In this document: positions 8,167 through 14,033 of the stretch, one piece after another | Position numbering within the stretch: the first letter of the stretch is position 1 | How the letters are laid out: each line of letters opens with the position of its first letter | Source: Methanomassiliicoccaceae archaeon | GTDB taxonomy: Archaea; Thermoplasmatota; Thermoplasmata; Methanomassiliicoccales; Methanomethylophilaceae | DNA: 64,000 bases | Direction of reading: 5' to 3' | NCBI GenBank assembly: GCA_034928305.1 | Contig: JAYFOZ010000002.1 | Location: 558,001-622,000, forward strand | Translations under genes and position numbers: made by a program | Notes under the pieces: model-generated | The model's input: the letters and a program-made list of their open reading frames with translations, nothing else | Database searches by the model: none | What the model was told of the DNA's origin: nothing

Positions 8167-8241
8167 GTGTGTGAGTGAATCTCATTATTTATAACTGATT
8201 AAGTACGTGTTCCTGACGCGGGTTTCGTGCGAACAAGGGCG

Positions 8242-8275
8242 CTTATAAGATGAAATTAAGAGAAAATCTTATAAG
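8242..8275. promoter_or_regulatory. Mirrored TATA-box pair between purB and the coiled-coil gene
   Basis: CTTATAAGAT (8242-8251) and ATCTTATAAG (8266-8275) form a perfect 10-bp inverted repeat, and each arm contains the self-complementary core CTTATAAG. Both cores look like TATA boxes. The right one would start the rightward coiled-coil transcript near 8298. The arrangement could also be a dyad operator. Confidence 0.5.
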
Positions 8276-8305
8276 TGAATTGTTTCATAGCGCAAAACGT
8301 AAGTG

Positions 8306-8327
8306 GACCATGCTTTTACTCATGGTC
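8306..8327 (+). other. Stem-loop in the 5' leader of the coiled-coil gene
   Basis: GACCATG (8306-8312) pairs perfectly with CATGGTC (8321-8327) across an 8-nt loop. It lies 22 nt before the chosen start at 8350, inside the predicted leader. A role in translation or mRNA stability is possible but not shown. Confidence 0.4.
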
Positions 8328-8349
8328 GGTCGAACACGAGTGTGGATTT

Positions 8350-9381
8350 ATGAAAGAGGTTGATGTGGAAGTTCAGCAGAATTCTGAAGAAGTTCAGCAA
8401 GAAGAAGTCGAAAAGGTCGAGGACGATGTTTTAGAGGACGTCGTGACCGAAGAGACGGAAGTGCAGACTACGGAAGAGGATGAGAAGGAGTCTGCGGAAA
8501 GGCTCGAGACCCTCGAGGAGAAACGCAGCATTGTGAACAACGATGCCGACAAGCACAGGAAGCTCAGGGACGAATATCACGCCATGACCAAAGAGTGGAA
8601 GTCCAAGAGGGACGCTCTCAACTCTCAGGTCAGGGAACTGGTCACCGACGCGGGAAAGTGCAGGGACGAACGCGATCAGTTCAACACGCTGGTCAGGGAA
8701 GCCAAAGCTCAGAGGGACGAGTGGAACGTTAAAGTATCTGAATTCAAAGGAAAACTGACAGAACTGAGGCCAGAGAAACCTGAAGACAAGGAAAAATCCG
8801 GGCCATCGCTCGAAGAGATGAAGAGAAACCTCAGAAGGATGGAACTCGAACAGCAGACCGGCGTGCTCACAAAAGCGGCCGATGACAAGCTCGTCAAACT
8901 CATTTCGCAGTTGGCTAAACAGATAGACGAACGCGAGTCCGAGATGGAATCCTCTACCGAGCACAACGCAGAGTACAGGGAGATACAGACCATGTTCAGG
9001 GAGGCCAAGGCGACCGCCGAGGGCTTCCACACCGAAATGTCAAAGAACGCCGACCTCGCACAGTCCGCCCATGAGAAGATGATCGCACTGTACGATCAGG
9101 CTGACAGGCTCAGGAAGGAGGCCGACGCAGCCCAGGCGAAGCTGGTAGAGTATAAGCGCCTCGGCGACGAAGAGCACAGGATGCACATCGAGCTCGTAAG
9201 GTCCATACAGGACACCGACAGGGAAGCATCCGGCATCAGGAACCGCAAGTCCAATGCCCGTAAGAAGAAAGTCGAAGCCGATAATAAGAAAGAGGCCAAG
9301 GAAATCTTCGAGCGGTTCAAGAACGGGGACAAGCTCAGCACGGAGGACCTCATGGCCCTCCAGAGATCCGGCTACCTCTGA
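8350..9381 (+). CDS. Long coiled-coil protein (COG1340-like)
   Basis: A 343-residue protein that is almost entirely charged and helical. It has an acidic, Glu-rich N-terminus (about residues 1-45), a long coiled coil (about 50-325) and a short basic C-terminal region ending with a putative small helical motif (STEDLMALQRSGYL). This fits the archaeal COG1340 family of uncharacterised coiled-coil proteins. I chose ATG 8350 (MKEVDVEV) because upstream in-frame sequence reads like leader and contains a hairpin; an ATG at 8275 would add 25 unlikely residues. The gene is divergent from purB and followed by a 3' hairpin. Confidence 0.75.
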   Translation: MKEVDVEVQQNSEEVQQEEVEKVEDDVLEDVVTEETEVQTTEEDEKESAERLETLEEKRSIVNNDADKHRKLRDEYHAMTKEWKSKRDALNSQVRELVTDAGKCRDERDQFNTLVREAKAQRDEWNVKVSEFKGKLTELRPEKPEDKEKSGPSLEEMKRNLRRMELEQQTGVLTKAADDKLVKLISQLAKQIDERESEMESSTEHNAEYREIQTMFREAKATAEGFHTEMSKNADLAQSAHEKMIALYDQADRLRKEADAAQAKLVEYKRLGDEEHRMHIELVRSIQDTDREASGIRNRKSNARKKKVEADNKKEAKEIFERFKNGDKLSTEDLMALQRSGYL

Positions 9382-11766: not shown

Positions 11767-12723
11767 ATGCGCTCTGCGGTTGCCGGAACATTCGATATTC
11801 TGCATGACGGGCACCGCGCTCTGCTCAGGCGAGCCTTCGAGATCGGAGACGCGGTCGCAGTCGGTATAACGTCGGACGAAATGGCCGCCAAGGGCAGAAA
11901 GATTATTCTTCCGCTGGAACTCAGGATATCTGCGCTCAGGGCGTTCCTTGCTGGAACTTCCAAGCCGTGGGAGATCTTTATCATCGACGATATCTACGGC
12001 CCGAAGGAAATGATGGACCTGGTTGATGTGCTTGTTCTGACCGAGGAGACTCTTTCCAATGGCAAGAAGATCAACGATGATCGCAGATCCCGCGGGGTGC
12101 GGCCACTGGAGTTCTCGGTAGTGCAGCTGGTCATGGCGGACGACGGGGCTAAGATATCTTCCAGTGCTATTTTAGAAGGAAGATATGGTAAAAACGGGGT
12201 CAGCAATGTGCCGGATATTGCAGTCGGATCGCTGAATCCCGTAAAGATAGAGGCCGTAAGGAGCGTGCTCGAGAAGATATACGGCAGTGTCAGGATAACT
12301 GCCGCAGATGTCGACAGCGGCGTTCCGGAACAGCCGTTCGAGTCCGACGTCAGGAAAGGGGCCATCAACAGGGCCCGCAATGCGCTGGGAGACCACACTA
12401 TGGCATTCGGCATCGAAGCAGGGGTCTTCGAGAGGGAGGAGGGTCTGTTCGACATCCAATACTGCGCCGTGCTCGACAGGAATGGCACGCTCACTGTAGG
12501 CATGGGGCCCGGATTCACATACCCAGACGACATAGCCGATCTGGTCCGCAACGGTTTTACCGTTGCCGAAGCGATCGCCGAGCTTTATGGTAACAAAGGG
12601 GTCGGCAAAAGGCAGGGCGCCATCGGAATGCTCAGCAACGGTCTGCTGGACCGTAAAACTCTGACCGAGCAGTCGGTGATCGCAGCGATGGTCCCGCGCA
12701 TTTCTTCGGACCTCGGTTATTGA
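11767..12723 (+). CDS. Fusion of phosphopantetheine adenylyltransferase and DUF84 inosine/xanthosine triphosphatase
   Basis: A 318-residue two-domain protein. Residues 1 to about 145 are an archaeal-type CoaD (4'-phosphopantetheine plus ATP to dephospho-CoA), with the nucleotidyltransferase motif GTFDILHDGH at residues 7-16 and KISSSAI near 125. Residues from about 152 to the end match the YjjX/DUF84 family that hydrolyses ITP and XTP (VGSLNPVKIEAV at the start, FGIEAGVF in the middle). The ATG at 11767 directly follows the preceding stop with a TGATC spacer. The fusion joins CoA synthesis to nucleotide-pool cleaning, and a functional link between them is unclear. Confidence 0.9.
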   Translation: MRSAVAGTFDILHDGHRALLRRAFEIGDAVAVGITSDEMAAKGRKIILPLELRISALRAFLAGTSKPWEIFIIDDIYGPKEMMDLVDVLVLTEETLSNGKKINDDRRSRGVRPLEFSVVQLVMADDGAKISSSAILEGRYGKNGVSNVPDIAVGSLNPVKIEAVRSVLEKIYGSVRITAADVDSGVPEQPFESDVRKGAINRARNALGDHTMAFGIEAGVFEREEGLFDIQYCAVLDRNGTLTVGMGPGFTYPDDIADLVRNGFTVAEAIAELYGNKGVGKRQGAIGMLSNGLLDRKTLTEQSVIAAMVPRISSDLGY

Positions 12724-12724
12724 T

Positions 12725-12734
12725 ATAAATATCC
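12725..12734 (+). promoter_or_regulatory. Predicted TATA box of the ETF-like pair
   Basis: ATATAAATAT lies about 25 bp before the ATG at 12754, directly after the coaD-DUF84 stop codon. This suggests a separate, leaderless transcript for the ETF-like genes. Confidence 0.55.
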
Positions 12735-12753: not shown

Positions 12754-13326
12754 ATGGAGTATGTTCTATCCGTGACAGGCGATCCCGCTTCGGCTTTGGG
12801 TGCCTTGCAGGCGGTCATGAAGAATGATGACACACTCATCGCGGTTGCCATAGGGGCAGAAAAACTCGATGATACGCTCAATACCTGCATATCTGCGGGC
12901 GCTTCGAGGACATACCGGCTCATGGACGAGGATTTCAAAGGCTCCGATACATGGGCATTGGCCAGGATATATGCGGCCTTCGTCCAAAAATACAGTCCCG
13001 AGATGGAATTGATGATATTCAGTCGCTACAGTTCCGCATTACCGATGCTGGCACATTTGATCGGGGTGCAGCAGTTCTGCTATGTTACCGAAATCGCAAG
13101 TGACGCGGAAGGCATCATTGTCACCCAGGACTACGGGGACGAGAGGAGGAAATGCCGCGTGCCTCGAGGATCGGTCATCTCTCTTAAAGAAAACACGCAG
13201 TTTTCATATGAAGATAAAAGTGCCAGCGCATCCAAGATCGAAAACATTGACAGGGAAGGCCTGGAACTGGCGAAGATGTCTGTCGGCTTCCGTGGTTCCC
13301 GTGTATTTGCCAGAGAGGTGTGCTGA
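12754..13326 (+). CDS. Reduced ETF beta-like protein
   Basis: A 190-residue protein related to the beta subunit of electron transfer flavoprotein (EtfB/FixA). It is much shorter than the usual 250-260 residues. The Rossmann-like core is recognisable: an alternating N-terminal half, then PMLAHLIG and YVTEIASD around residues 95-115. The family segment DGDTGQVPP that contacts AMP or FAD is replaced by SRYSSALPM, and the C-terminal recognition loop is absent. It overlaps the following EtfA-like gene by one base. Binding of a flavin or AMP is therefore uncertain. Confidence 0.75.
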   Translation: MEYVLSVTGDPASALGALQAVMKNDDTLIAVAIGAEKLDDTLNTCISAGASRTYRLMDEDFKGSDTWALARIYAAFVQKYSPEMELMIFSRYSSALPMLAHLIGVQQFCYVTEIASDAEGIIVTQDYGDERRKCRVPRGSVISLKENTQFSYEDKSASASKIENIDREGLELAKMSVGFRGSRVFAREVC

Positions 13327-14033
13327 TGGGAGGATGCGACGGATGTGCGTCGAGCGGTTCATGCCCCTCCTACAGTTCCGGCGACTCATGCAGCACCGGC
13401 TCATGCGGAGGGGAAAAGAAGCTTCCTCCGGGGATGCTGGAACATTACAATACAAACCAATCGACGGCTGACGGTACGCTTGTGTTCATAGAGGTATCGG
13501 ACAAGGAAGGCGAGCAGGTAATCGAACCCGTTTCTTTGCAGTTGCTGAATAAAGCTTCTGAAATGGGAGGGGGGCGTCTGTTCGGAGTCATGTTCGGTGG
13601 GCCGGAGCGGAAAGAAATCTACAAAAGAGTATTCTCCTACGGAGTGGACACGCTTTATCATGTCAGGGACGTCCGTCTTTCGACATTTCATCCGGAAGCC
13701 TATGCGGAATCGATTGCAAAGATATGCGAACGCATCATTCCTGCCGTCGTGCTCATAGGATCTACTGCGAGAGGTACGGAGCTGGCTCCGAGGACGGCAG
13801 CCTCAATGGGAACGGGCATCGTGACGGACTGCAGCGATCTGGCACTCGAGGGGAGAAAGCTTAGCATGTTCCGTGTTTCCAATGGTAAAAAGATACGTTA
13901 CGAGTGTGTATCATTTCCCCAAGTGGCAACAGTAAAGGAAGACGTTTTCCCATCACCCGATGTCGATGAGGGGCGCGGCGGCACCGCATTCTATTGGCAG
14001 TACCGCGGGAACAAAATCAAACAGATATTGTAA
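13326..14033 (+). CDS. Reduced ETF alpha-like protein with N-terminal cysteine cluster, no FAD domain
   Basis: A 235-residue EtfA-like protein. I chose ATG 13326, which has a GAGGTG site 5 nt upstream, over a GTG at 13320. The first 29 residues are a Gly/Ser-rich tail with five cysteines (C4, C7, C13, C22, C27) that could bind a metal or Fe-S cluster. Residues from about 45 on match the N-terminal domain of EtfA, including the conserved ARGTELAPRTAASMGTG stretch. The protein stops where the C-terminal FAD-binding domain of normal EtfA (about 310-330 residues) would begin. No remnant of that domain follows: the opposite-strand peroxiredoxin gene abuts the stop. Confidence 0.75.
   Translation: MGGCDGCASSGSCPSYSSGDSCSTGSCGGEKKLPPGMLEHYNTNQSTADGTLVFIEVSDKEGEQVIEPVSLQLLNKASEMGGGRLFGVMFGGPERKEIYKRVFSYGVDTLYHVRDVRLSTFHPEAYAESIAKICERIIPAVVLIGSTARGTELAPRTAASMGTGIVTDCSDLALEGRKLSMFRVSNGKKIRYECVSFPQVATVKEDVFPSPDVDEGRGGTAFYWQYRGNKIKQIL

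Follow-up and report, generated by a model that had tools for sequence, protein, structure and literature searches.

Two small proteins of a methanogenic archaeon as probable remains of a larger electron-transfer enzyme, with a retained cysteine tail that hints at a different job

Among the described complexes close to the locus reported here is Ldh-EtfAB of Acetobacterium woodii (LctBCD; PDB 7qh2). According to PMC9232219, residues 2-65 of LctC form a ferredoxin (Fd) domain that is vital for ferredoxin coupling, and EtfB carries DGDTAQVGP as its b-FAD motif and RXFXG as a NAD stretch. The Ldh of LctBCD-type complexes was found in bacteria only, according to a 2018 survey (PMC6085437).

We describe a reduced ETF pair in a 64,000-nucleotide stretch of DNA (the window) from a Methanomassiliicoccaceae archaeon (GenBank assembly GCA_034928305.1, contig JAYFOZ010000002.1, positions 558,001 to 622,000 of the forward strand), which GTDB places in the family Methanomethylophilaceae. 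The host genome is 1.34 Mb long and 98.9% complete. The EtfB-like gene (12754-13326, plus strand) encodes a protein of 190 aa (P0001), and the EtfA-like gene (13326-14033, plus strand) encodes one of 235 aa counted from its ATG (P0002). The two share one base, as the preliminary description of this DNA had it, with the EtfB stop TGA at 13324-13326 and the EtfA start ATG at 13326-13328. A promoter of their own is plausible: a TATA-like element read from the sequence, TATAAATA (12724-12731, plus strand), lies 30 nt 5' of the EtfB ATG, begins 1 nt past the stop of the upstream gene (gene end 12723), and would suit a nearly leaderless transcript. Of five genus members compared, the window, L033, L034 and L035 have it; in L036 it is not obvious. 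An Rfam search of the window returned only two tRNAs, neither of them near the pair.

The EtfA-like protein consists of an N-terminal cysteine-rich tail, MGGCDGCASSGSCPSYSSGDSCSTGSCGG, followed by the motif LPPGML (13422-13439, plus strand) and ETF domain I. The tail (codons 1-32; 13326-13421, plus strand) contains five cysteines, C4, C7, C13, C22 and C27. P0002 matches Pfam PF01012 (ETF) at 108.8 bits (cut-off 26.7), and the FAD-binding domain PF00766 is absent from it at E values up to 1 and is found nowhere in its own genome, where P0001 and P0002 are the only PF01012 matches. Both the five-cysteine tail and an end before the FAD domain had been noted from the sequence and stand. Confidence of the predicted model is high from roughly residue 50 onward, whereas residues 1-42 have pLDDT below 50 and are predicted to be disordered; residues 44-235 match the folds of 7koe_B (Z 26.5), 5ol2_A (Z 26.1) and 7qh2_A (Z 25.4) in the PDB.

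Of 147 genomes searched from the order Methanomassiliicoccales, 74 carry an orthologue of this EtfA, and 72 of these belong to the same family as the window. Relatives found separately under their own names are likewise all Methanomassiliicoccales, labelled as Methanomassiliicoccaceae or Methanomethylophilaceae archaea, and the four nearest are the MAGs UBA421, UBA370, UBA72 and UBA404. Among the 72 family members, 47 have a full-length EtfA with PF00766. In the remaining 25, including that of the window, the FAD domain is lost or degenerate: a homologue search for short EtfA with N-terminal cysteines, which had been proposed as a check, yields 21 short forms among the 72 tailed family orthologues, and in four further genomes the EtfA C-terminus is degenerate and has ceased to match PF00766. 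The LPPG(M/I) motif is present in 21/21 short, 43/47 full-length and 2/4 degenerate proteins, with LPPGM invariant in the 18 aligned short forms and present in most full-length relatives too. The EtfA motif RP(A/T)xxG, in contrast, is found in 45 of the 47 full-length forms and in none of the 21 short ones. In one orthologue (G038, L053:8838) a Thr stands at the position of its relatives' start Met, right after the EtfB stop, and the start codon is uncertain.

The orthologues occupy one syntenic slot. In its full-length version the order is a CTP_transf_like/NTPase_I-T fusion, LctD, EtfB, EtfA, an AhpC/TSA peroxiredoxin, and two genes that we take from their sequences to be PheT and HMG-CoA reductase. 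The LctD-like gene normally lies directly 5' of EtfB; its product matches PF01565 and PF02913 and has LctD of A. woodii Ldh-EtfAB (7qh2_C) as its best PDB match. A full-length LctD-like protein is encoded in exactly those 47 genomes with PF00766, although cut by contig ends in a few of them, and in none of the other 25. An LctBCD-like gene set thus occurs in methanogens, with the LctD-EtfB-EtfA set of L066 (6436-7983 and 4600-5664, both minus strand) and of 46 further family genomes resembling bacterial Ldh-EtfAB. No LctD-type subunit occupies the LctD slot of the window, where the upstream gene stops at 12723 and EtfB begins at 12754; across the whole genome the matches are all distant and GlcD-like (best E 1.8e-12). 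At G000:C1:157625-158425 lies a second GlcD-like protein, also distant, with an open frame of 488 aa; most of the order's 147 genomes show comparable remote matches, whether or not they carry ETF.

Descent of the locus from an Ldh-EtfAB (LctBCD)-type complex that was subsequently reduced is well supported by these comparisons, because the 47 genomes with full-length EtfA also carry the LctD-like subunit. The synteny, a tree in which full-length forms surround the short ones, and LctC as the best PDB match of the short-form profile all agree with common descent. An assembly truncation, which the preliminary description had named as a finding that would overturn its account, is ruled out: four further members of the genus share the arrangement, and the purifying selection described below also speaks against it.

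The EtfB-like protein of the window is a reduced ETF domain III lacking the flavin and NAD motifs and the C-terminal arm. It matches PF01012 at 53.3 bits (cut-off 26.7) and does not match PF00766 in a Pfam search; its predicted model has a pLDDT of 91 and matches the folds of 5ol2_B and 7qh2_B. Aligned with full-length relatives it is missing about 27 N-terminal residues and the C-terminal arm, and at the place of their DGDT(A/G)QVP b-FAD motif it has the residues SSALP (13030-13044, plus strand) together with a 5-residue gap, so that the earlier observations of a missing DGDTGQ-type motif and C-terminal part are both borne out by the alignment. The motif DG.T.Q.P is present in EtfB at 42 of 47 loci with full-length EtfA versus none of the 11 short-EtfA loci with an EtfB row; 'DGDT' alone occurs in three of these 11 rows, never as the full DG.T.QVP motif. 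At the RXFXG position the window reads EDFKG, a weak test given that R.F.G is found at only 26 of the 47 full-length-EtfA loci. EtfB profile matches at L082 and L083 were left out of these counts as spurious, on account of their poor scores and because an open reading frame in L084 resembling them is antisense to an FKBP-like gene. The EtfB of L077 (G036; approximately 8225-8870 in the EtfA orientation) is split over two frames and is either a pseudogene or the product of a sequencing error.

Binding of flavin in the usual way is unlikely judging from the sequences, since DG.T.Q.P is missing from all 11 EtfB and RP(A/T)xxG from all 21 EtfA proteins of the short type. The earlier suggestion that the pair no longer uses flavin as ETFs usually do is therefore well supported at the sequence level, PF00766 being absent and the motifs lost, but it missed the origin of the pair as the remnant of an LctBCD-type complex. 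No homologue of the same length with a measured FAD site turned up; the solved short relative is 3fet, with 165 residues. EtfAB-base folds do bind AMP or FAD in known ETFs and the EtfB model folds confidently as domain III, so the pair could still hold AMP, FAD or FMN in a remodelled pocket of EtfB and shuttle electrons between other flavoenzymes; the genome also has the second GlcD-like protein (G000:C1:157625). We consider this unlikely. The paralogue is also present in genomes without any ETF, 12 of the 25 FAD-less genomes have no detected EtfB to bind a nucleotide, and the window EtfB has lost both the b-FAD motif and the RXFXG stretch. An alanine variant of that motif lowered the flavin content of the A. 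woodii protein (PMC9232219).

The FAD-less genomes are reduced to different extents. The genus of the window retains a short EtfB; in G034 and G044 EtfA lies directly 3' of the upstream gene with no EtfB between them, and in eight genomes of genus g10 EtfA is relocated and EtfB undetected. In the 12 genomes without detected EtfB the single PF01012 match is EtfA alone, and all 25 keep the cysteine tail and EtfA domain I. All eight g10 genomes with a moved EtfA have a short LctD-like match. In the two g10 loci examined closely (L150:6095-6943 and L151:6115-6966) an LctD-like protein of 282-283 aa is encoded at the former site of EtfA; it keeps part of FAD_binding_4 and the C-terminal end and is missing the middle.

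Four genera (g6, g7, g10 and g11) each contain both full-length and FAD-less forms, and a quick tree of domain I (74 rows, full-length outgroups) has six changes between FAD-bearing and FAD-less states, with several FAD-less clades comprising more than one species. A single origin of all short forms as one clade is rejected by an AU test (p 0.00027) on 70 of the 74 rows, four long-branch rows (L094, L099, L101 and L105) being left out. The g1 and g7 short forms as one clade are also rejected (p 0.028), whereas joining g1 to g12 (p 0.25) or to the g10 short forms (p 0.42) is not. The FAD domain and LctD thus appear to have been lost several times independently, although the exact number of losses is not firm. 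Repeated reduction of this kind, ending in one and the same flavin-poor core, amounts to a natural experiment and suggests that EtfA domain I with its tail is useful without FAD.

EtfA in the genus of the window, tail included, is under strong purifying selection. By the NG86 method its dN/dS is 0.02-0.09 in six pairs of the genus, compared with 0.15-0.26 for the six EtfB pairs that yielded a value; several pairs, mostly with L036, gave none as a result of saturation. Eight full-length pairs resemble the genus in EtfA, with 0.04-0.15, and have 0.07-0.20 for EtfB, and EtfA of four other short-form pairs gives 0.06-0.19. The window EtfA is 83-87% identical to those of three congeners at dS 1.65-2.1, and over the 32 tail codons it differs from L033 by 10 synonymous and no nonsynonymous codon changes. 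The low EtfA dN/dS and the 10:0 ratio in the tail argue for a function of EtfA, with weaker constraint on EtfB.

These values bear on the possibility that the short genes are passing remnants that are being lost and serve no purpose themselves. Many genomes of the family are without any ETF, EtfB is lost or undetected in nearly half of the FAD-less genomes, four EtfA proteins have degenerate C-terminal domains, and the split EtfB of L077 has a dN/dS of 0.61 against L072, all of which would fit genes in decay. The selection on EtfA and its tail, its conservation among congeners at such high dS, and the several FAD-less clades that span more than one species make this an improbable account of the pair.

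The cysteine tail is common to the whole family. Cysteines make up 17.0% of residues in the tails of the 72 family orthologues (268/1579) versus 1.7% in the next 200 residues (248/14340), an enrichment beyond chance. At least two tail cysteines are present in 72/72 and at least three in 70/72, the mean being 3.5 in full-length EtfA and 4.1 in short forms. Since the 47 full-length relatives carry the tail as well, it predates the loss of flavin. The tail also stands where LctC has its [4Fe-4S] ferredoxin domain, because positions 33-210 of the short-form profile (A2) align to LctC 63-242, directly at the end of that domain; in the LctD-EtfB-EtfA set of these gut-type methanogens it replaces the EtfA ferredoxin domain in position. 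Loci L104 and L105, from two other families of the order, have an EtfA N-terminus with ferredoxin-type cysteines, with a Fer4 match in L104, and a Pfam search of P0002 gave no match to a Fer4-type family. The tail with LPPGML seems confined to the family of the window: when 300 genomes of the class were searched, most matches from outside the order began past the tail, and a minority began near profile position 6-9. Two other sources of the tail were considered and rejected. The Mrp-like protein of the same genome (275 aa as called) has no cysteine tail that could have been borrowed from Mrp/NBP35-type Fe-S carriers, and the tail has no other match in its own genome at E up to 10, as a mobile module would. 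A three-cysteine DNA pattern run over the genome gave 12 matches against 25 in a reversed control and no useful signal.

The number of tail cysteines (2 to 7) and their spacing (20 patterns) differ among the family orthologues, which is unlike a fixed set of cluster ligands and counts against an Fe-S or metal site. A tail acting as a sulfur or persulfide carrier linked to sulfide assimilation is another option, and at four of the eight g10 short-form loci (L082-L085) the moved EtfA adjoins genes for HcyBio (PF01837, whose name refers to the incorporation of sulfur when homocysteine is made), an FMN reductase and a protein without Pfam match that we take to be UPF0280-like, with a NIL-ferredoxin also seen in L084. 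EtfA is on the opposite strand to these neighbours in all four, the set is absent from the other four g10 loci (L089 keeps the FMN reductase only), and the syntenic forms, that of the window included, have no such neighbours; we regard a sulfur carrier of this kind as very unlikely.

We think it reasonably, if not strongly, probable that an LctBCD-type complex left this pair as its remnant, poor in flavin or free of it, and that the pair is kept for a second role centred on the cysteine-tailed EtfA base. The sequences show that in the family EtfA a short cysteine-rich tail takes the place of the N-terminal ferredoxin domain, and that several lineages, including the genus of the window, then lost LctD, the EtfA FAD shuttle domain and the EtfB flavin motif. 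The EtfA domain I base and its tail have persisted, and in the window a small EtfB still accompanies them. The two would form a heterodimer like the rigid EtfAB base, with little or no flavin and presumably no bifurcation, and their retention may reflect a flavin-independent second role of the tailed EtfA base. The tail cysteines would most likely hold an Fe-S cluster or a metal, or do thiol chemistry, while domain I may dock EtfA on a partner; among the syntenic forms we found no conserved gene for such a partner. Cofactor and function of the pair are in this sense our interpretation. A bolder version, to which we give a modest chance at best, is that methanogens of this family, by stripping a confurcating Ldh-ETF complex several times, turned the cysteine-tailed domain I into a flavin-free carrier of Fe-S, metal or sulfur of a new kind, and that the tail already had a second job in the intact complex, leaving it as the sole survivor. 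The occurrence of full-length and stripped forms within one genus makes the role of the tail directly testable.

Several known systems share parts of this design. Canonical EtfAB (human, Paracoccus, Methylophilus) has PF01012 in both subunits and a fold in common with the window pair, which differs in having no PF00766 FAD domain and a shortened, armless EtfB. The caffeyl-CoA reductase-Etf complex CarCDE (PDB 6fah; Z 24.4) resembles the window in an EtfA N-terminal cysteine-containing region before domain I, although CarE, according to PMC9232219, combines a flavin domain with a folded ferredoxin domain, unlike the window EtfA. A short EtfA alone is not new, for Ta0212 of Thermoplasma acidophilum (PDB 3fet, 165 residues), also an archaeal EtfA-type protein without the FAD domain, is already known as a structure. 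Its chain 3fet_A superimposes on the window EtfA with Z 18.0 and rmsd 2.5 over 161 aligned residues at only 21% identity; it is not among the sequence matches of the short-form profile at E 0.01, and the solved chain has no room beyond the ETF domain for a tail of the window's length. In literature searches covering few of the subscription journals, no description of a cysteine-tailed or FAD-less EtfA in Methanomassiliicoccales was found. As far as this search extends, the new elements are a tailed LctBCD-like set in methanogens, the fact that it was stripped repeatedly, and the cysteine-tailed core that was kept. A close counterpart is A. woodii Ldh-EtfAB: the full-length relatives have the same kinds of subunits (LctD, EtfB and EtfA) encoded side by side, and the short-form profile has its best PDB sequence match in LctC, whose fold also matches domain I, whereas the window has no LctD, FAD shuttle domain or DGDT motif, and carries a cysteine tail at the place of the Fd domain.
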